In this document: positions 1,937 to 61,573 of the stretch, one piece after another | How positions within the stretch are numbered: the first letter of the stretch is position 1 | How the letters are laid out: each line of letters begins with the position of its first letter | Assembly (NCBI GenBank): GCA_007988785.1 | Contig: BJUU01000015.1 | Span: 1-63,787 of the forward strand | Origin: Agrococcus baldri | GTDB taxonomy: Bacteria > Actinomycetota > Actinomycetes > Actinomycetales > Microbacteriaceae | Direction: 5' to 3' | DNA length: 63,787 bases | The notes under the pieces: generated by a model | Seen by the model: the letters and a program-made list of their open reading frames with translations, nothing else | Databases searched by the model: none | Told to the model about the DNA's origin: nothing | Translations under genes and position numbers: made by a program

Positions 1937-2030
1937 GCGTGCCTCCCTGACGTCCCTGCGCGGCCCGGTGACGCATCCGCACCCGAACCCGCCGCCATGG
2001 TAGACGTCGGCCTTGTGCGCGGGCAGTGCG

Positions 2031-3686
2031 TCAGGCGGGATCTGCGGGCGCGGAGCCGTTCCCGCGGCCGCCGCGGAACTTCGCCACCACGATGTCGACC
2101 GTCGAGCGGAAGTCGGGGTTGCGCGTCAGGTAGAGCAGGCCGAAGTAGATGAGCGCCATCACGACGCCGGCGGCGATGCAGGTGAGCACGGCACCCGTCA
2201 CGTTGACGGTGCCGAAGCCACCCGGGCGGTAGCCGCCGAGGGCCCAGACCGTGCCGGCCCCCGCCGCCGCCGCGAGCAGGCCGTACGCCAGGTACTGGAC
2301 GTGGCGCCAGCCGATCAGCCGGAAGCCGAAGGGCCCGATCTTGCGGCGGACGAGGATGAGCCAGACCGAGCACGAGACGAGGTTGGCACCGGAGACGGCG
2401 AGGGCGGTTCCCGCGATGATCCACACCGGCGGGAGCGTCGACGCCCACCACAGCAGCCCGAACGTCACGAACATCCCGAAGCACGCGTAGATGAACGGGG
2501 TGCGCGTATCGCCGAGCGAGAAGAAGACGCGCTGGATGACGTACTCGGCGCTGAAGGCGACGAGGCAGACGAGGAAGGCCCAGATGACCCAGGCCATCGA
2601 CAGCATGAGGTCGAAGCTGGGCTCGAGGATGCGGGCGAAGGGCACCGCGATGACGGCGAGCACGAGCGCCGAGATGGTCGTGAGCATGCCGACGCCGCGC
2701 AGCGCCGACGAGAGGTCCTGCCGGATGCCGGCGACGTTCGACTCGCTCGCGTGGCGCGACATGCTCGTGAAGTAGGCGATCGCGATCGACACGGCGATGA
2801 TCGAGTGGGGGAGCGAGAACACGTACCAGGAGTTCTGCATCGTGGCGATGTTCGCCACCTCGCCCATCGACGCGACGCGCGACTGCACGACGCCCTTGAT
2901 CTGCCCGATGATGACGATGCCGAACAGCCACATCGCGGCCGTTCCCGTCGCCTTCAGGCCCACGCCGCGCCAGCCGAAGTCGAGCCTGAAGCGCAGGCCC
3001 GTCTTGCGGAAGAAGAGCACGAGCACGAGCGCCTGCACGGCGACGCCGACGGTGGTCACCGCGCCGAGCAGCGTGATGCGATCCGGGTTCCACACCTCGA
3101 TGTCGCTGTTCACCGCTTCGCCGCCGAAGAGCAGCATGAACGCACCGAGGCCCGCGATCGACACGACGTTGTTGACCACCGGCGCCCAGGTGTAGGGGCC
3201 GAACTGGCTGCGGGCGTTGTAGATCTCGCCCAGCAGCGTGTAGATCGCGTAGAAGAGGATCTGCGGCATGCACCAGTAGGCGAGGGCGACCGCGAGCGCC
3301 ATCTGCTCGTTCGTGAAGCCGCTGCCGCTCTCGGTGGCGCTGACGGCGTACAGCTGGACGAGCCACGGCGCGGCGACGGTGGCGGCCGCTGCGATCAGCA
3401 GGAAGACCGTGCCGCCGAGGGTGAGGATCTTCGAGATGTAGGCCTCGCCGCGGTCGGCGGCCTTCGAGGCCTTGACGATCTGCGGCACCAGCACGGCGCT
3501 CATGACGCCGCCGGCGACCAGCGCGTAGACGTTGTTCGGCAGCTGGTTCGCGAGGCCGAACGCCTCGGCGGCGTGGGAGCCTCCCTGGCCGATCGCCATG
3601 GCGAGCATCGCCATCTTCACGAAGCCCAGCACGCGCGACACCATCGTGCCGGAGGCGATGATCGCGCTCGCCCTGCCTGCGTTCAC
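2031..3686 (-). CDS. murJ: lipid II flippase MurJ
   Basis: Integral membrane protein of 551 aa in the MOP/MATE superfamily that flips lipid II for peptidoglycan synthesis. It opens with the family-typical ASAIIASGTMVSRVLGFVK and has about 14 hydrophobic helices throughout. The GTG start at 3686 is chosen because it follows an AGGAGG site and forms a 4-nt GTGA overlap with the stop of the DUF6049 gene; the open frame continues upstream only inside that gene. Unlike some mycobacterial homologues it ends soon after the last helix and carries no long pseudokinase/FhaA-binding tail. Essential housekeeping gene. Confidence 0.95.
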   Translation of the reverse strand: MNAGRASAIIASGTMVSRVLGFVKMAMLAMAIGQGGSHAAEAFGLANQLPNNVYALVAGGVMSAVLVPQIVKASKAADRGEAYISKILTLGGTVFLLIAAAATVAAPWLVQLYAVSATESGSGFTNEQMALAVALAYWCMPQILFYAIYTLLGEIYNARSQFGPYTWAPVVNNVVSIAGLGAFMLLFGGEAVNSDIEVWNPDRITLLGAVTTVGVAVQALVLVLFFRKTGLRFRLDFGWRGVGLKATGTAAMWLFGIVIIGQIKGVVQSRVASMGEVANIATMQNSWYVFSLPHSIIAVSIAIAYFTSMSRHASESNVAGIRQDLSSALRGVGMLTTISALVLAVIAVPFARILEPSFDLMLSMAWVIWAFLVCLVAFSAEYVIQRVFFSLGDTRTPFIYACFGMFVTFGLLWWASTLPPVWIIAGTALAVSGANLVSCSVWLILVRRKIGPFGFRLIGWRHVQYLAYGLLAAAAGAGTVWALGGYRPGGFGTVNVTGAVLTCIAAGVVMALIYFGLLYLTRNPDFRSTVDIVVAKFRGGRGNGSAPADPA

Positions 3687-5698
3687 GCGGTCTCCTCCTG
3701 ATCGCGGTGCTCGCGGGCGAGGTCGTCGATGTCGCCGCGAGCCTGGCCGCGGCGCCGCTTCTGGATCGAGCGGAGGATGCCGAAGCCCAGCAGCAGCACG
3801 ATCGCGATGCCGAGCGTCCACGCCACCGCCACCTCGATCGTCGGCTGCGCAGTGATGTGCAGCTGCTGGATCTGCCCGAGCGGCACCCCGTCGGGCGTGT
3901 GCAGCTGCACGACCATCAGCAGCGTGCCCGTGCCGACGACGTCGACGGGCACCTGCACCCGCTGCTGGCTCGTGGGCGCGATCGTCACGTCGATGCGCGG
4001 CTCCGGCACGCTGACGAGCGCGTTCGTGGGCCGCACCGTGAGCACGACGTTCGCCGGCACATCCAGCTCGTTCGTGATCGTGATCGGCAGGCCGACGCTC
4101 TCGCCGACCGCGTGGATGTCGCTGCCGCCGACGAGCTGCACGGCATTGCGCACCTCGCTCATGGTGCCCCCGAGGTTCTCGATCGCCACCCGGTCGGCCT
4201 CGGTCACCTCGCGGCCGGCGTCGGGCAGGGCTGCGAGCACCGCCAGCCGCAGCTCGGCGAGCAGCGCGGCGGGCTCGTCGACGATCGATGCGACGCGGGA
4301 TGCCTCCGACTCCTGCTCGAGCGCGTCGGCGACGAGCGCGGCACCGTCGTTGCGCTGGGGATCGTCGGTCTCGACGAGCGTCGCCTCGCGCGGCGTCGCC
4401 TCGAGCGCCGTGTCGAGGCCGGCCGTCTCGACGAACTGCGCCTCGGCGAGGTCGGCGAGCAGCGGGGCGGAGTCGCCGCTGCTCGGGGGTGCCAGCACCG
4501 CGGCGAGCGTGCGCGGGTCGCTGGGGCGCTCGCGGGTGATGGTGGCGAGCAGCGCCACGACCTGCGCGCGCGCATCGGCCGCCGACTCCTCGTCGGCCTC
4601 GGCTGCGGCGCGCACGAGCTCCTGCAGCTGCGCGTCGGCGGCCAGCACGTCGACGCCGTCGACGCGCACGTGCGCGCTCGGCGTGCTGCCGCCGAGCTGC
4701 TCGTCGAGCGCCGCGGTCGAGAGCACGACGGTGCCGGCGCCGGCGAGCGACTCGAGCTCGCCCTGCCGCACGATCGCCCGGGTGGCGTCGATGACGGGCG
4801 ATCGCGTGCCGACGGAGCCGGCCGTCGCCGGCAGCGGGTCGTCGTCCTCGCGCGGGATGCCGAGCGGCTCGAGCGGGTAGGCACCCGCTCGCACCTGCGC
4901 GATGGGGTCGGCGTTGGCGTAGAGCAGCGGATGGCTCGCCGGCGTGTCTGCGCGATCGAGCCAGTCGGTCGCCGCCTCGGGCGCCTCGTCGCCGAGCGCC
5001 GCCTCGCTCGCGCCGAACGCCGGGTCGATGCCGATCGTGGCGTCGGCGCCCAGCGCGGCGTCCAGGGCGGTGCGTGCCTGCCCGCCGGGCTCGGTGGCCG
5101 CCTCGAGCTGGTCGGCGGTCAGCAGCCCGCTGGCGCCGACGCGCGAGTCGATGGGGGCGGAGAGCGCGACGGTCGTGGGGCTCGCCTCGCCGGGCTCATC
5201 GCGCACCACGACGCTCGTGGCGCTGCCGAAGGCGGCGCCCGATGCGGCGAGGCCGTACGGCCCCCACGCGCGGCCGTCGAGGCCGAGCGCCTCCGCGTCG
5301 ATGCTCGTGCGCACCGTCTCGCGGTCGAGGGCGTCGACCGCGGGCACCTCGACCGTCGCGATCGCGGAGCTCGCCATGAAGGCCTCGCCGTCGAACCAGC
5401 GGCTGAGGCTGTAGCGGGTGCCGATCGGCTGGGTCGTGAGCAGCACCTCGACGGTCGTGGCCTCGGTGGCGTCGGCGCTCGGGTTGTCGATGGTGAGCTC
5501 GAGGTCGAGCCCGTCGCCGTCCTGCAGCAGCGGGTCGACCGGCGCGAGGATCATGTGCGGCGCCTCGTCGAGCGGCTCGTCCGGCGGGGCGGTGGCGCTC
5601 GCGGGGGCGAGCTGGGGTGCCACCACCATCGCCGTCGCGAGCGCGACGACGGCGCACGCGGTCGCGCGCCGTCGCGCGAGGCGACCTGCCGACAGCAT
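3683..5698 (-). CDS. DUF6049 family secreted membrane-anchored protein
   Basis: Large exported protein of 671 aa. It has a signal peptide at residues 1-35 (RLARRR then a hydrophobic core ending in ASA), a long extracellular region rich in Ala/Glu/Asp, and one C-terminal transmembrane helix (VAWTLGIAIVLLLGFGIL) followed by a basic tail inside the cell. The near-C-terminal beta-rich section resembles an immunoglobulin-like domain. Proteins of this type sit next to murJ and the CCA-adding enzyme across actinobacteria (Rv3909 position in M. tuberculosis); a cell-envelope role is inferred from that linkage, the biochemical function is unknown. ATG at 5698 follows a TACACT -10 box by 7 nt, so it is probably leaderless. 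Confidence 0.85.
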   Translation of the reverse strand: MLSAGRLARRRATACAVVALATAMVVAPQLAPASATAPPDEPLDEAPHMILAPVDPLLQDGDGLDLELTIDNPSADATEATTVEVLLTTQPIGTRYSLSRWFDGEAFMASSAIATVEVPAVDALDRETVRTSIDAEALGLDGRAWGPYGLAASGAAFGSATSVVVRDEPGEASPTTVALSAPIDSRVGASGLLTADQLEAATEPGGQARTALDAALGADATIGIDPAFGASEAALGDEAPEAATDWLDRADTPASHPLLYANADPIAQVRAGAYPLEPLGIPREDDDPLPATAGSVGTRSPVIDATRAIVRQGELESLAGAGTVVLSTAALDEQLGGSTPSAHVRVDGVDVLAADAQLQELVRAAAEADEESAADARAQVVALLATITRERPSDPRTLAAVLAPPSSGDSAPLLADLAEAQFVETAGLDTALEATPREATLVETDDPQRNDGAALVADALEQESEASRVASIVDEPAALLAELRLAVLAALPDAGREVTEADRVAIENLGGTMSEVRNAVQLVGGSDIHAVGESVGLPITITNELDVPANVVLTVRPTNALVSVPEPRIDVTIAPTSQQRVQVPVDVVGTGTLLMVVQLHTPDGVPLGQIQQLHITAQPTIEVAVAWTLGIAIVLLLGFGILRSIQKRRRGQARGDIDDLAREHRDQEETA

Positions 5699-5705
5699 GG
5701 TGGCA

Positions 5706-5711
5706 AGTGTA
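5706..5711 (-). promoter_or_regulatory. -10 box, leaderless start of DUF6049 gene
   Basis: TACACT lies 7 nt before the ATG at 5698. The divergent CCA-adding enzyme gene has its own -10 box 59 nt away. Confidence 0.55.
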
Positions 5712-5769
5712 GGCCGCTCGTCAGTGCGCGGCCCTCCGCTGCCCCGCCGCCCGGCCGCGCCGGAGGTGC

Positions 5770-5775
5770 CAGAAT
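5770..5775 (+). promoter_or_regulatory. -10 box, leaderless start of CCA-adding enzyme
   Basis: CAGAAT lies 8 nt before GTG 5784. A GGAGG at 5762-5766 is too far from either candidate start to act as a ribosome binding site, which favours a leaderless GTG. Confidence 0.5.
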
Positions 5776-5783
5776 GGTCGGTC

Positions 5784-7247
5784 GTGACCGACATGGCCGA
5801 GGCGACCGCGCGACTGCACGCGCTCGTCGCCACCGCGCCCACGGCGCGGCTGGCCGAGGCGTTCACCGCCGCCGGCCACGAGCTCGCGCTCGTCGGCGGC
5901 CCGGTGCGCGACACCTTCCTCGACCGACCCGTCACCGATCTCGACTTCGCCTCGAGCGCCTCGCCCGACGAGATCCTCGCCGTGGTCGCGCCGCTCGCCG
6001 ACGCGACCTGGGATGTCGGGCGCGAGTTCGGCACCATCGCCGCCCGCATCGGCGGCGACACCGTCGAGATCACCACCTACCGGGCCGACACCTACGACGG
6101 CGTCTCGCGCAAGCCGCAGGTGGCGTTCGGCGACACCCTCGAGGGCGACCTGGTGCGCCGCGACTTCACCGTCAACGCCATGGCGCTGCGCGTCACGCCG
6201 TCGCGGGGCGAGACGGTCACGGATGCGTCGCCGCAGCTCGTCGACGTCGGCGGCGGCCTCGAGCACCTGCTGGAGGGCGTGCTCGACACGCCCCAGGCGC
6301 CCGAGCGCTCCTTCGACGACGACCCGCTGCGCATGATGCGGGCCGCGCGCTTCGCCGCGCAGCTCGGCTTCGACGTCGCACCCCGGGTGGTGACCGCGAT
6401 GACCGAGCTGGCCGAGCGCATCCGTGACATCTCCGCCGAGCGGGTGCGCGACGAGCTCACCAAGCTGCTGCTGACCGGCGGGCCCGTGCCGGGCATCCGC
6501 CTGCTGACCGAGACCGGCATCCTCGACCTGGTGCTGCCGGAGGTGCCGGCGCTGCGGCTCGAGACCGACGAGCACGCGCACCACAAGGACGTCTTCGAGC
6601 ACTCGCTCACGGTGCTGCAGCAGGGCATCGACCTCGAGGCGTCGAGGAATCCGGATGCGGCGCCAGACCTGGTCTCGCGGCTCGCGGGCCTGCTGCACGA
6701 CATCGGCAAGCCCGCCACGCGGCGCATCGAGGGCCGCACCGTCACCTTCCACCAGCACGACCTCGTCGGCGCGCGGATGGCGAGGAAGCGGCTCAAGGAG
6801 CTGCGCTTCGACAACGACACGGTGAAGTCGGTGGCGCGGCTGGTCGAGCTGCACCTGCGCTTCTACGGCTACGGCGAGCAGGCGTGGACCGACTCGGCCG
6901 TGCGCCGCTACGTGCGCGACGCGGGGCCGCTGCTCGAGCGGCTGCACATCCTCACCCGATCGGATGTCACGACCCGCAACCGGCGCAAGGCCGAGCGGCT
7001 CGACTTCGCCTACGACGACCTCGAGCGGCGCATCGCCGAGCTGCGCGAGCAGGAGGAGATGGACGCGGTGCGCCCCGACCTCGACGGCGAGCAGATCATG
7101 GCGATCCTCGGCATCCGGCCCGGCCGCGAGGTGGGGGAGGCCTACCGGATGCTGCTCGAGCACCGCCTCGAGCACGGGCCGGCGACGCCCGAGGAGGCCG
7201 AGCGCGTGCTGCGCGAGTGGTGGGCCGCGCGCGCGGTGGAGCTCTAG
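5784..7247 (+). CDS. pcnA: CCA tRNA nucleotidyltransferase
   Basis: Adds or repairs the 3' CCA end of tRNAs; cytosolic, 487 aa. The class II nucleotidyltransferase signature is visible as LVGGPVRD and TDLDFASS (metal-binding Asp52 and Asp54), and an HD domain follows with LLHDIGKPATR near residue 305. Annotation pipelines label this actinobacterial family PcnA, but CCA addition is the expected activity. The GTG at 5784 is preferred to the ATG at 5793 because a -10 box sits 8 nt upstream of it; the alternative removes only three residues. The stop is followed directly by a terminator hairpin, so it is likely monocistronic. Confidence 0.95.
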   Translation: MTDMAEATARLHALVATAPTARLAEAFTAAGHELALVGGPVRDTFLDRPVTDLDFASSASPDEILAVVAPLADATWDVGREFGTIAARIGGDTVEITTYRADTYDGVSRKPQVAFGDTLEGDLVRRDFTVNAMALRVTPSRGETVTDASPQLVDVGGGLEHLLEGVLDTPQAPERSFDDDPLRMMRAARFAAQLGFDVAPRVVTAMTELAERIRDISAERVRDELTKLLLTGGPVPGIRLLTETGILDLVLPEVPALRLETDEHAHHKDVFEHSLTVLQQGIDLEASRNPDAAPDLVSRLAGLLHDIGKPATRRIEGRTVTFHQHDLVGARMARKRLKELRFDNDTVKSVARLVELHLRFYGYGEQAWTDSAVRRYVRDAGPLLERLHILTRSDVTTRNRRKAERLDFAYDDLERRIAELREQEEMDAVRPDLDGEQIMAILGIRPGREVGEAYRMLLEHRLEHGPATPEEAERVLREWWAARAVEL

Positions 7248-57113: not shown

Positions 57114-57174
57114 GCGGGTCCTCCTCCAGGGCGGTGGTCGGCCGGGGCCCCGGCTCGGGGTTCATGGCCTGCAC

Positions 57175-57187
57175 GCATACGATATGC
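57175..57187. promoter_or_regulatory. palindrome over the putA -10 box
   Basis: GCATA-CGA-TATGC is a perfect 5-bp inverted repeat. It overlaps TACGAT, the -10 box of putA (57178-57183), in the 77-bp divergent gap, so a bound regulator would block putA. Confidence 0.4.
57178..57183 (+). promoter_or_regulatory. -10 box, leaderless putA
   Basis: TACGAT, 7 nt before ATG 57191. Confidence 0.55.
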
Positions 57188-57190
57188 GGC

Positions 57191-60100
57191 ATGACCGAGC
57201 AGCCCAGGGACGATGACTTCGACGCCCTGATCGCCGAGGGGATCCAGGACGTCGAGCGCGAGCGGCCCGCGGGCGGGGCCGACGGCGATCCCGGCGCGCC
57301 GGCTGCCGGCCGCGAGCAGGAGCGCCAGGACGACATCCGGCAGCTGGGCCTCGACGAGCCGCTCGAGGTGCTCGACGAGCAGGACGCCGACGAGCAGGAC
57401 ACCGACGCGCAGGACGCCGACGAGCAGGACGCCGACGAGCCGGATCCCGACGAGCCGGTGCGACTGACGGTGACGCTCGACTCCGGCCCCGCCTTCGAGA
57501 TCGACGACGCCACGTGGGCGGCGGCGGTCAGCCCGTACCAGCCGGTCGAGGTGCCCGGCGTCGCGCGCTCGGCCGAGGAGCCGCCCGCCCAGGGCTGGTC
57601 GCTCTCGAGCGACGTCGGCGAGGTGCCGACGGTGCAGATGGATGCGCTGGAGCTGCGGGAGGAGCTGAGGGCGGCATCGCTGACGCCGGTGCCCGAGGCC
57701 GCGCAGGCGCCGGTGCCGGCGGAGCCTCCCGCGGAGCCGGACGCGCTGGAGCACACCGTCGCGATCGAGACGGTGCCGGCCGCGATGCCCGAGCCGCTCG
57801 CCGAGCCGGAGCCGGAGCCGGAGCCCGCACCGGTCGTCGAGCCGCAGCCGGCGCCCGTCCCCGAGCCGGCCGTCGCGCCGCAGCCCGTCGTCGCGCCGCA
57901 GCCGGAGGCCGCCCCGGAGCCGGCCGCCGAGCCCACGCCGGCTCCTGCCGCCGAGCCCGGACCGGAACCTGCACCCGAGCCCGCCGCCGAGCCCGTGCCG
58001 ACGCCCGCATCCGCCCCCGTCTTCCGCCCCGCACCGACCCCCGCCGCCGAGACCGGCAGCGACGACCCCTTCGCGCTCGCCGCCATCGAGCGGGTGCGGG
58101 GCTGGGTCGCCCGGCCCACGCCCGGCAAGCGCGACAAGGCCGAGGAGCGGCTGGCGGGCCTGCTGCAGGACCCGAACGGGCTCGACTTCGCCGTCGGCTT
58201 CGTCGACAGGGTCGTGCGGCCCGAGGATCCGAAGGTGGGCGCCCGCAACTTCGAGGAGCTCAGCCGCGACATCCCCGGGTTCCTCGACTGGTACCTGAAG
58301 CTCGGCGTCACGCTCGGCGGCGGCTTCGGCATCGTCAGCCCCAAGCTCGTGATCCCCATGGTGAAGAAGGCGATGCGCGAGATGGTCTCGCACCTCGTCA
58401 TCGACGCGACCCCCGCCAAGCTCGCCAAGCCGCTCGCGAAGCTGCGCGAGGACGGCACTCGGCTCGACATCGACCTGCTCGGCGAGGCCGTGCTCGGCGA
58501 GGAGGAGGCCGCCAGCCGGCTCGCCGCCCTGACCGAGCTGCTGCAGCGCGACGACGTCGACGCCGTCTCGGTCTCGGTCTCGTCGATGGCGCCGCAGCCG
58601 CAGCCGTGGGCGTTCGACGAGACGGTCGAGAAGGTGAGCGATCGGCTGCTGCCGCTCTACGCGCTCGCCGCGCAGTCGCACCCGCCGAAGCTCATCACGC
58701 TCGAGATGGGGGAGTACCGCGACCTCGACCTGACGATCGCGGTCTTCGAGCGGCTGCTCACCCGGCCAGAGCTCGCGCGGCTCGAGGCGGGCATCGTGCT
58801 GCAGGCCTACCTGCCCGACGCGCTCGCCGCCTACCGCCGCCTCGCCGCCTTCGCGAAGGAGCGCCGCGCGCACGGCGGCGCCGGCATCACGGTGCGGCTC
58901 GTGAAGGGCGCGCACCTCGCCATGGAGCGGGTCGACGCCGCGCTGCACGGCTGGCCCCTCGCGACGCTGCCCTCGAAGGAGTCGAGCGACGCCAACTTCA
59001 AGCGCGTGCTGCGCGAGGCGCTGCTGCCCGACAACGCCTTCGCCGTGCGCGTCGGCGTCGCGAGCCACAACCTCTTCGACCTCGCCTACGCCGCAGAGCT
59101 CGCGCGCGAGCACGGCACCCACCAGCGCATCGACGCCGAGATGCTGCTGGGCATGGCCGCCGACCACCGCGCCGCCGTGCGCGAGGTGTTCCCCAGGCTC
59201 GTGCTCTCGACGCCCGTGGTGCTGCCCGACCGGTTCGACACGACCGTCGGCTACCTCATCCGCCGCCTCGAGGAGCACGCGGCCGGCGAGGGCTTCATGT
59301 CGAGCATGTTCGAGCTCGCCGACCCGGTGGTGTTCCAGCGCGAGCGCGACCGCTTCCTCGCCTCGCTCGAGCTGCTGCGCGCCGAGGACGCCGCCCGCGG
59401 CGACGGCCGGCCGCCGCGGCCGAACCGCACCCAGGACCGGCTGGGCGACCTGCAGGCGTCGATGACGCATCCGACCGGATTCGCGAACGAGCCCGACACC
59501 GATCCCGCGCTCGCCGCCAACCGCGACTGGGCGCGGCAGATCGTGCAGCGCGCCGGCGCCACCGAGCTCGGCGCCCGCACGCTCGAGATGAACCGCATCG
59601 AGGACTGGCCGACGCTCGAGCGGCGCATCGACCGGGCGGCGCAGGCGAGCGACGGATGGGCTGCGCTCGGTGCCGAGGCGCGGTCACGGATCCTGCGCGA
59701 TGCGGCCGCGGCGCTGGGCGCCTACCGCGGGCGCCTGATCGAGATCATGATGGCCGAGACCGGCAAGACGATCGCCGAGGCCGACCCGGAGGTGTCGGAG
59801 GCGATCGACCTCGCGCGCCTGGCCGCCGAGCAGGCGCTCACGCTCGAGCAGATCGAGGATGCGACGCCGCAGCCCGTCGCCCTCACCGTCGTGGTGCCGC
59901 ACTGGAGCGTGCCGGTCGCCGTCCCCGTCGGCGGCGCGACCGCGGCGCTCGCGACCGGTTCGGCCGTCATGCTCACGCCGCCCCCGCAGGCCCGGCGCAG
60001 CGCGGCCGTGCTGTGCGAGGCGCTGTGGGAGGCGGGCGTGCCGCGCGAGGTGCTGGTGCTGTGCGACGTCGCGGAGGGGCCGGTCTCGCAGCAGCTCATC

Positions 60101-61573
60101 GCGCACCCGGCGGTCGGCCGCGTGATCCTCACCGGCTCGTCCGAGACGGCGGCGCGGTTCACCTCCTGGCGCCCCGAGCTGCCGCTGCTGGCCGAGACGG
60201 GCGGCAAGAACGCGATCGTCGTCACGCCCTCCGCCGATCTCGAGCTCGCTGCGGCCGACATCGTGCGGAGCGCCTTCGGCCACGCCGGGCAGAAGCGCGA
60301 TGCCGCATCCGTCGTCATCATGGTCGGCACGGTGGGCGACTCGGAGCGGTTCCGCCGCCAGCTGGTCGACGCGACCCGCTCGCTGCGCATCGGCTCGCCG
60401 CTCGACGCCCGCACCCACGTCGGCCCGCTCATCGAGCCCGCGCAGGGCGCGCTGCTGCGGGCGCTCACGACGCTCGAGCCCGGCGAGGAGTGGCTGCTCG
60501 AGCCCAAGCGGCTCGACGCCGCCGGCCGCATCTGGTCGCCCGGCATCCGCGACGCCGTCGAGCCGGGCAGCTTCACGCACGTGACCGAGCTCTTCGGCCC
60601 GCACCTCTCGCTCATCGAGGTCGAGACGCTCGACGAGGCGATCGACGTGCAGAACGCGAGCGAGCTCGGGCTCGCCGCCGGGCTGCACTCGCTCGACCCG
60701 ATCGAGGTGGCGCAGTGGCTCGACGAGGTGCGCGCCGGCACCCTGTACGTCAACCGCGGCATCACGGGCGCGATCGTGCGGCGCCAGCCCCTCGGCGGCT
60801 GGAGGCGCTCGCAGGTCGGCCCCGGCGCCAGGCCGGGCGGGCCGAGCGCCCTGCACTCGCTCGTCGACTGGCAGCCGGTCGAGCGCGGCCCGCGCGAGTC
60901 GGTGCGGCTGCACGGGCTCGACAAGCGGGTCTCCGAGCTCATCGAGTCGGCGACGCCCGCGCTCGACTTCCTCGCCTTCGACCGCGTGCGCGCCGGCGCG
61001 AACAGCGACCAGCGCGCCTGGGAGGAGGAGTTCGGCGAGGCGCGCGACGTCGCGCAGCTCGGCGTGGAGCGCAACGTGCTGCGCTACCGGCCGGCGGATG
61101 TGCTGCTGCGGGTCGCCGAGGACGGCTCGGTCGCCGACCTGGTGCGGTTGATCGCCGCCGCGGCGCGCACCCGCGCGATCGTGCGCATCTCGACCGCCAT
61201 CGAGGTGCCCAGCGGCATCGTGAAGCTGTCGAAGCAGCCCATCCCGCACGTGCGCATCGAGGAGATCGTGGAGGAGTCCGACGCGGCCTTCCACGCGCGC
61301 ATCGCCTCGGGCGAGGTGCTCGCCGAGGTCGAGAACGAGGATGCGCTCGGCCTGACCCGCACGACCGAGCCGCTGCGGCGCATCCGCCTCATCGGCACCG
61401 ACGCGGGCCTGCGGCCGGCGCTCGCCGGCAACACGACGGTGGCGGTGTACGACGGGCCGGTGACGACGGCGGGCCGCATCGAGCTGCTGCCGTTCCTGCG
61501 CGAGCAGACGGTCTCGATCACGGCGCATCGCTTCGGCACGCCCGACAAGGAGATGCAGGCGCTGACGCCGTAG
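57191..61573 (+). CDS. putA: bifunctional proline utilisation protein PutA, dehydrogenase half apparently defective
   Basis: 1460 aa. Residues 1-290 are low-complexity (an acidic DEQDA repeat, then a Pro/Glu/Ala-rich stretch). The FAD proline dehydrogenase domain (about 295-740) is intact: RLVKGAHLAMERVDAALHG, NLFDLAYAAEL, YLIRRLEEHAAGEGF. The glutamate-semialdehyde dehydrogenase domain (765-1235) keeps ETGGKNAIVV (general-base Glu) and the GSSETAARFTSWR nucleotide loop, but the catalytic motif GQKCSA reads GQKRDA (Arg1036-Asp1037; codons CGC GAT). The C-terminal region (1235-1460) ends TPDKEMQALTP. Proline is oxidised to P5C; completion to glutamate is in doubt. Confidence 0.9.
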   Translation: MTEQPRDDDFDALIAEGIQDVERERPAGGADGDPGAPAAGREQERQDDIRQLGLDEPLEVLDEQDADEQDTDAQDADEQDADEPDPDEPVRLTVTLDSGPAFEIDDATWAAAVSPYQPVEVPGVARSAEEPPAQGWSLSSDVGEVPTVQMDALELREELRAASLTPVPEAAQAPVPAEPPAEPDALEHTVAIETVPAAMPEPLAEPEPEPEPAPVVEPQPAPVPEPAVAPQPVVAPQPEAAPEPAAEPTPAPAAEPGPEPAPEPAAEPVPTPASAPVFRPAPTPAAETGSDDPFALAAIERVRGWVARPTPGKRDKAEERLAGLLQDPNGLDFAVGFVDRVVRPEDPKVGARNFEELSRDIPGFLDWYLKLGVTLGGGFGIVSPKLVIPMVKKAMREMVSHLVIDATPAKLAKPLAKLREDGTRLDIDLLGEAVLGEEEAASRLAALTELLQRDDVDAVSVSVSSMAPQPQPWAFDETVEKVSDRLLPLYALAAQSHPPKLITLEMGEYRDLDLTIAVFERLLTRPELARLEAGIVLQAYLPDALAAYRRLAAFAKERRAHGGAGITVRLVKGAHLAMERVDAALHGWPLATLPSKESSDANFKRVLREALLPDNAFAVRVGVASHNLFDLAYAAELAREHGTHQRIDAEMLLGMAADHRAAVREVFPRLVLSTPVVLPDRFDTTVGYLIRRLEEHAAGEGFMSSMFELADPVVFQRERDRFLASLELLRAEDAARGDGRPPRPNRTQDRLGDLQASMTHPTGFANEPDTDPALAANRDWARQIVQRAGATELGARTLEMNRIEDWPTLERRIDRAAQASDGWAALGAEARSRILRDAAAALGAYRGRLIEIMMAETGKTIAEADPEVSEAIDLARLAAEQALTLEQIEDATPQPVALTVVVPHWSVPVAVPVGGATAALATGSAVMLTPPPQARRSAAVLCEALWEAGVPREVLVLCDVAEGPVSQQLIAHPAVGRVILTGSSETAARFTSWRPELPLLAETGGKNAIVVTPSADLELAAADIVRSAFGHAGQKRDAASVVIMVGTVGDSERFRRQLVDATRSLRIGSPLDARTHVGPLIEPAQGALLRALTTLEPGEEWLLEPKRLDAAGRIWSPGIRDAVEPGSFTHVTELFGPHLSLIEVETLDEAIDVQNASELGLAAGLHSLDPIEVAQWLDEVRAGTLYVNRGITGAIVRRQPLGGWRRSQVGPGARPGGPSALHSLVDWQPVERGPRESVRLHGLDKRVSELIESATPALDFLAFDRVRAGANSDQRAWEEEFGEARDVAQLGVERNVLRYRPADVLLRVAEDGSVADLVRLIAAAARTRAIVRISTAIEVPSGIVKLSKQPIPHVRIEEIVEESDAAFHARIASGEVLAEVENEDALGLTRTTEPLRRIRLIGTDAGLRPALAGNTTVAVYDGPVTTAGRIELLPFLREQTVSITAHRFGTPDKEMQALTP
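57374..57448 (+). repeat. 15-bp tandem repeat inside putA
   Basis: Five in-frame units of GACGAGCAGGACGCC, with point changes, encode the DEQDA repeat. The third unit reads GACGCGCAG and the fifth GACGAGCCGGATCCC. Length may vary between strains. Confidence 0.8.

Follow-up and report, generated by a model that had tools for sequence, protein, structure and literature searches.

The two active sites of PutA have been described residue by residue. In excerpts of PMC10651016, Lys329, Tyr540, Tyr552, Leu513, Arg555 and Arg556 are residues of the proline site; in excerpts of PMC12398946, Asn707, Phe708, Phe1010 and Cys844 are residues of the GSAL site. The best match in both sequence and fold to the gene examined here, copy A, is PutA of Corynebacterium freiburgense (PDB 5ux5). 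It differs from A in that GQKCSA, the lysine of the proline dehydrogenase (PRODH) domain and the oxyanion asparagine are all kept. Among the openly licensed papers listed, none looked like a report of a PutA pseudoenzyme by its title and abstract opening.

Copy A lies in what we call the window, the whole stretch of 63,787 nucleotides of Agrococcus baldri DNA that was analysed (contig C15; the assembly has 48 contigs and 3.16 Mb). Its frame is open and intact, as the initial annotation had it; it covers 57134-61573 (+) and encodes 1479 residues from the GTG at 57134 or 1460 from the ATG at 57191, the start favoured by comparison of the A copies. Residues are counted here from the GTG unless stated otherwise, and published residue numbers were matched to columns of A via common motifs and in part by the usual PutA numbering. 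The named relatives at 81-83% identity are Agrococcus. Both domains of a bifunctional PutA, Pro_dh (PF01619) and Aldedh (PF00171), are found on the one chain (table 1). No DNA-binding family is among the Pfam matches, and a DNA-binding domain was dropped for that reason. Against the NCBIfam PutA equivalog PRK11904.1 copy A scores 292.6 bits for a cut-off of 747, a figure for A alone that carries little weight. The part encoded by 58100-61573 is predicted to fold with a mean pLDDT of 88.5 and a pTM of 0.90, from an alignment that also contained live relatives. With 5ux5 as the top PDB match (TM 0.77 by query, 0.92 by target), A is predicted to keep the fold of PutA.

Table 1. Features of copy A and of its start region in the window. 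Residue numbers start at the GTG at 57134.
Feature	Position	Strand	Basis
putA-like paralogue A, predicted double pseudoenzyme	57191..61573	+	open frame, Pfam domains, predicted fold
GCATACGATATGC palindrome (57175-57187) with TACGAT -10-like box, 7 nt upstream of ATG	57175..57190	+	conserved start region
N-terminal acidic, Pro-rich arm, end approximate	57191..58080	+	motifs common to live and disarmed A
Four short conserved arm motifs	57215-57244, 57365-57394, 57485-57526, 57593-57655	+	alignment of A copies
Proline dehydrogenase (PRODH) domain, catalytic pocket lost	58427..59302	+	Pfam Pro_dh; pocket residues replaced
Ser481 for PRODH catalytic-base Lys (Lys329 of E. coli PutA)	58574..58576	+	alignment; number mapped by motif
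Glu524 for conserved PRODH Asp	58703..58705	+	alignment
Ser692 for ring-packing Tyr (Tyr540)	59207..59209	+	alignment; role from PMC10651016
Kept proline-binding Tyr707, Arg710, Arg711 (Tyr552, Arg555, Arg556)	59252..59266	+	unchanged in 9/9 disarmed Agrococcus A
P5C/GSAL dehydrogenase (ALDH) domain, catalytic centre lost	59615..60871	+	Pfam Aldedh, 276.7 bits
Thr948 for presumed NAD-binding Lys	59975..59977	+	alignment
Ser925-Val926 for oxyanion-hole Asn and aromatic-box Phe (Asn707, Phe708 of SmPutA)	59906..59911	+	alignment; PMC12398946
Arg1055-Asp1056 for catalytic Cys-Ser	60296..60301	+	codons CGC GAT; Cys-Ser in live copies
Leu1220 for second aromatic-box Phe (Phe1010 of SmPutA)	60791..60793	+	alignment; PMC12398946

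What has become of the two active sites? The GQKRDA motif (60287-60304) singled out by the initial annotation is real, its Arg-Asp at 1036-1037 from the ATG being 1055-1056 here. In Agrococcus these two positions are Cys-Ser in the 15 canonical copies of A and in 20 copies of B, as they are in the 124 rows of the family that were scored as live. As had also been noted, ETGGKN retains its glutamate, although the neighbouring serine is changed to glycine. The alignment with relatives in the Microbacteriaceae that had been proposed as a check bears out the loss of the cysteine but shows a wider loss, for Asn925, Phe926, Lys948 and Phe1220 are replaced as well, and so are residues of the PRODH half, which had been described as intact. 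There SVSVSS stands for SVKVSS, LEMGEY for LDMEEY and LSTPV for LYTPV, so that the base lysine, the ring tyrosine and one aspartate are all replaced. The PRODH catalytic residues of a bifunctional PutA (the Lys329 and Tyr540 equivalents) and its ALDH catalytic cysteine and oxyanion asparagine are thus absent from A. Glu524 presumably occupies the place of Asp370 in the PRODH numbering. Position 948 we take to be that of the NAD-binding lysine, and its change to threonine makes NAD binding by the ALDH domain, one of the functions first suggested, doubtful. Another, channelling with a working PRODH half, finds no support: once the base lysine, ring tyrosine and aspartate are gone there is nothing for A to channel. 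The idea of a pseudoenzyme gains more than was claimed for it, since the damage extends to both active sites and is found again in sister species. With the enzyme fold apparently kept and the catalytic residues lost, A is a predicted pseudoenzyme that has very probably lost catalysis.

If A no longer oxidizes proline, what does? The initial annotation had suggested looking for a stand-alone P5C dehydrogenase. The genome holds instead a second PutA, copy B. It lies on contig C34 and retains GQKCSA and PPWNFP as well as the Lys, Asp and Tyr of the PRODH site. Since B is canonical in both halves at the residues read, a stand-alone enzyme as backup is unneeded. The domain order of B is identical to that of A, at about 50% identity; its match ends at query residue 1043, where the contig end cuts off the C-terminal part. 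As a separate observation, two aldehyde dehydrogenase matches lie side by side at G000:C16:1139-3303; that at 1966-3303 is almost complete, and that at 1139-1837 spans only the first half or so of the profile.

Copy A occurs in all 24 Agrococcus genomes and copy B in 21 of them. G011 has A in pieces, readable only from the end of the PRODH half onward, and B as a fragment. B is missing from G013, G018 and G023, each of which has a single Pro_dh match. Rows dropped before these counts were the duplicates L014, L050-L053, L069 and L080-L082, the G011 fragments L075 and L076, and the partial outgroups L056 and L057. At the catalytic residues checked, 20 of 20 aligned B copies are canonical. A is canonical in 15 of the 24 genomes and has lost catalytic residues, or is disarmed, in nine (G000, G001, G014, G021, G020, G015, G002, G017 and G003). 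Disarmed A is always accompanied by B: it is found in 9 of the 21 genomes that have B and in none of the three that lack it, where A is canonical. G021, with a listed contamination of 8%, has two equal-scoring B copies (G021:C3:38802-42167 and 351824-355189). Live and disarmed main-clade copies have recurrent neighbours, an FAD oxidoreductase that precedes A on the opposite strand and an F420-dependent glucose-6-phosphate dehydrogenase that follows it, and this supports the orthology of live and disarmed A. In G014 there is extra sequence between A and the usual downstream gene (L078, G014:C1:2473000-2480500, about 4475-6100), with two opposite-strand frames that resemble, by eye, HipA and a HipB-type repressor. 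At G014:C1:2479344-2479565 the final 74 codons of A occur a second time (82% to the window).

How often has A been disarmed? When the live or disarmed label is placed on an rpoB tree covering 20 of the 24 Agrococcus genomes, six changes are needed; G020, which has no rpoB match, is a likely seventh loss by a PutA gene tree made with a quick method. With G000, G001 and G014 counted as one lineage, A appears to have been disarmed in about seven lineages of the genus. At E 1e-150 a PutA match is present in 131 of 150 Microbacteriaceae genomes, copy number being the matches at this threshold among those listed, so that very decayed second copies could be missed. The family alignment has 132 rows: 127 family copies from 108 genomes, L054, L055, the partial L056 and two Agrococcus copies. 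Among the matches listed, the PRODH lysine and other residues are lost in six of the 127 family copies read (L149, L155, L169, L206, L218 and L219), and L054, from Frigoribacterium faeni, is a seventh disarmed copy outside Agrococcus. Outside that genus a disarmed copy is found, again among the matches listed, in 6 of 19 two-copy genomes with both copies read versus 0 of 76 one-copy genomes (Fisher p 3e-5, with kinship between genomes ignored). In 13 of 32 two-copy genomes just one copy was read, and none of the 13 has a disarmed copy among the matches listed. By nearest neighbours on a FastTree tree, the seven copies form about four more groups, which suggests, roughly, ten or eleven losses overall in the Microbacteriaceae.

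One further copy, L145 (G123:C162:4700-8200), keeps the ten scored catalytic residues and has the PRODH-pocket changes N445T, Y477H, F520L and N522T. It is a borderline live copy, possibly at an early stage of disarming. Its genome is 85% complete and has one PutA match; a backup may be absent from the assembly, or may not be strictly required. The case loosens the link between disarming and a backup copy. Because L145 keeps the ten scored residues, it leaves our odds for the preferred explanation, given below, unchanged.

Are the same residues hit each time? We considered the 274 columns that are invariant in 14 live A copies (the partial A of G011 excluded), 20 B copies and one Cellulomonas PutA. 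In all seven disarmed Agrococcus lineages 183 of these columns are unchanged, and eight are changed in every one: Asn445, Tyr477, Lys481, Phe520, Tyr692, Asn925, Lys1054 and Ala1459. Lys1054 is kept in the A copy of the window and lost in its sister genomes. Nine ligand-site residues, chosen a priori from two papers, show 34 changes in 63 cells versus 8.4 expected (p 1.2e-4). Against residue-matched columns the p-value of this set is 0.051, short of the 5% level, because Asn, Tyr and Lys columns are those that change most. Tyr707, Arg710 and Arg711, members of the set, never changed. The 14 live A copies, left out one at a time, have 0 to 6 changes at invariant columns and none at catalytic residues.

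The clearest case is G015. Where its live sisters G010 and G009 agree with each other, its A copy departs from them at 30 positions; G010 alone differs at 16 and G009 alone at 34. Nine of the 274 columns are changed, and eight of the nine belong to the set of 14 that every one of the six other lineages has changed (p 4e-11, or 3e-4 when restricted to N, Y, K, F, M and I columns). G015 thus looks like a recent loss in which, even there, the same residues are going first.

Outside Agrococcus, Lys481, Tyr477, Asn447 and Asn522 are changed in all seven disarmed copies; Asn925 is kept in three of the seven and Cys1055 likewise in three. We conclude that loss of the PRODH site is constant, and that loss of the ALDH site follows or accompanies it. 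The replacements recur as well: among the nine disarmed Agrococcus copies, N522T is found in eight, Y1205F in seven and A1459S in eight. A1459S as a specific mark of disarmament was rejected, as serine also occupies this position in 18 live family copies elsewhere.

Could A simply be a pseudogene that decays slowly? With B present, A would be unselected and its protein jobless; GC-biased mutation would remove the AT-rich codons of Asn, Tyr, Lys and Phe at catalytic sites first, and stop codons, being AT-rich too, would be rare. Much of the composition fits. Third-position G+C in these genes is mostly 94-99%, N, K and Y columns change in 54-62% of the lineage-by-site cells and G, R, L and P columns in 2-4%, and the residue-matched comparison of the catalytic set stops at 0.051. 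Since most of the lost residues have AT-rich codons in high-GC genes, mutation bias helps to select the targets. Among the matches listed for genus and family, no PutA row has the internal stop codons of a decayed pseudogene. Over seven lineages 24, 7.5 or 3.4 stops would be expected for no, tenfold or 32-fold GC bias, so that under a strong bias, 32-fold being the strongest tried, their absence is weak evidence. Constraint is relaxed in addition. By the method of Nei and Gojobori, a rough guide given such biased codons, dN/dS is 0.08 to 0.32 for live A pairs, 0.13 to 0.41 for disarmed sister pairs (0.15 to 0.27 for B of the same pairs) and up to 0.65 for disarmed G003 versus live G016.

All these values are still below 1, however, including those between disarmed sisters, and other invariant residues with AT-rich codons have not moved. 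The 11 tryptophan columns show 0 changes in 77 lineage-by-site cells, and Asn646, Asn1026, Asn1207, Lys591, Lys615, Tyr707 and five phenylalanines show none across the seven lineages. The recurrence of N522T, Y1205F and A1459S also speaks against decay, the latter two arising with no gain in G+C (subject, for position 1459, to the serine of live copies mentioned above), as do the arm and start region, which are kept, and the deeply diverged disarmed copies of other genera, which are still open frames. Neutral decay under strong GC bias is weakened by these observations; we regard it as possible, although unlikely.

Part of what is kept surrounds the ligands. Arg588, Lys591, His645, Asn646 and Gln557 we take to be flavin contacts. 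The first four, together with Tyr707, Arg710 and Arg711, are unchanged throughout the nine disarmed Agrococcus copies; Gln557 is kept in eight, G003 having lost it. Outside the genus, Lys591 is lost in four of the seven disarmed copies and some lack His645 or Asn646. The proline carboxylate clamp and the presumed flavin contacts being kept, A could act as a ligand-bound partner, a sensor or a scaffold. Assembly and the binding of a ligand, both named in the initial annotation, may accordingly still be among its functions.

The start region and the arm, both upstream of the PRODH domain, are kept too. The pattern located the start of 15 of 24 A copies, and in these the TACGAT box stands 7 nt before the ATG (6 in G003). 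The exact 13-mer GCATACGATATGC occurs once per genome in 12 of the 24 Agrococcus genomes, always just upstream of A, and is absent from the other 12. Disarmed A copies have it as well (G000, G001, G014, G020 and G021); the site differs by one base in G015, and its second half is altered in G003. This arrangement suggests leaderless transcription of A, and a palindrome lying over the -10-like box could be an operator.

The arm comprises about 300 residues or more, with motifs common to the live and disarmed main-clade copies of Agrococcus. Its dN/dS is 0.31-0.68 for pairs with a disarmed member and 0.35-0.47 for live pairs, in a comparison of 14 of the 24 A copies, seven disarmed and seven live, in which the ten without both arm ends were skipped. 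Judged by these rates, the arm evolves alike in the live and disarmed copies compared. Of 60 relatives searched, 17 have the arm, all of them Agrococcus (17 of the 24), and none outside the genus; it lies within the A frame except in G017, where it is found on a different contig, probably as the piece cut off from A. Being found in Agrococcus only, the arm was rejected as the general cause for which disarmed copies are retained.

What, then, is A for? We favour, with a probability of roughly 0.6, a maintained double pseudoenzyme in which a role other than catalysis has survived the loss of the chemistry, beside a catalytic B. The gene would be copy A of a two-PutA set in which proline oxidation is carried by B. 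With B to supply the chemistry, catalysis by A could be lost freely or would be opposed by selection, and in both domains the same residues of the pocket would then disappear repeatedly. On balance we think that A does retain a non-catalytic role; it would be made as a full-length, folded protein and kept for this second job, the likeliest type of which is binding. In Agrococcus the job could run through the N-terminal arm, perhaps by pairing with B. A bolder version, which we put forward as distinctly doubtful, makes A a prozyme-like regulator: a non-turnover twin, binding flavin and proline, that would pair with the live PutA and tune its flux or location, reached independently about ten times in two-copy Microbacteriaceae by selection against both sites. 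What was observed of such pairing is the co-occurrence of the two genes. If true, it would provide a series of natural replicates that show how an enzyme of two channelled steps comes to be disarmed.

Might the altered pockets act instead on a different substrate, such as a hydroxylated or bulkier proline? The change of Tyr540 to Ser in PutA alters its preference between proline and hydroxyproline. A structure of E. coli PutA Tyr540Ser with FAD and 4-hydroxyproline (PDB 3E2Q) is listed in a table of PMC10647483, and the Arg-Arg clamp is kept in A. But the base lysine is lost in 9 of 9 disarmed Agrococcus copies and in 7 of 7 others, with differing replacements, the tyrosine position varies (S, T, A, G) and the ALDH centre is hit too; on casual inspection no common new motif was noticed among the disarmed copies. 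A new enzyme seems to us improbable. An error of sequencing or assembly at the cysteine codon, conceivable in a single draft genome of 48 contigs and already discounted by the initial annotation, has a negligible chance, and for the phenomenon as a whole it is refuted by the eight other Agrococcus genomes, making nine, with related losses in A, different codons and replacements, and open frames.

Returning to the maintained double pseudoenzyme, the gene would no longer be seen as an enzyme half dead through a single odd cysteine, but as a double pseudoenzyme, which appears to have arisen many times beside its live twin. Within a single bacterial genus, one chromosomal place seems to carry this gene in a live form, in a newly disarmed form (G015) and in forms disarmed long ago, with two coupled active sites hit together in about seven parallel replicates. 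The order of loss, the role of the backup copy, and selection versus neutral decay thereby become directly testable in Agrococcus. For such genes the annotation ‘bifunctional PutA’ can mislead.

The pseudoenzyme precedents that we found for comparison are eukaryotic. ALDH16A1, the vertebrate pseudo-aldehyde dehydrogenase, belongs to a different ALDH family and has no PRODH half. Like A it combines an ALDH fold with the lack of catalytic residues, according to excerpts of PMC10650815. A non-catalytic second role is described for a PutA of Ralstonia, a transcriptional regulator that responds to proline, FAD and NAD (excerpts of PMC9132996); it differs from A in that activity is retained there, and A has no DNA-binding family by Pfam. 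The prozyme of trypanosome AdoMetDC, like A, is a catalytically dead paralogue beside a live enzyme (excerpts of PMC6221367); for the prozyme a heterodimer is known, whereas pairing of A with B is a proposal. The fungal pseudonucleases of the Ssd1/Dis3L2 type are unlike A in being derived from a eukaryotic nuclease with one active site and in having a second function that is known. They resemble A in the repeated loss of catalysis with conserved N-terminal domains; in excerpts of PMC8097288 an active member shares the second function, and the conserved N-terminal domains accompany the function that is kept.
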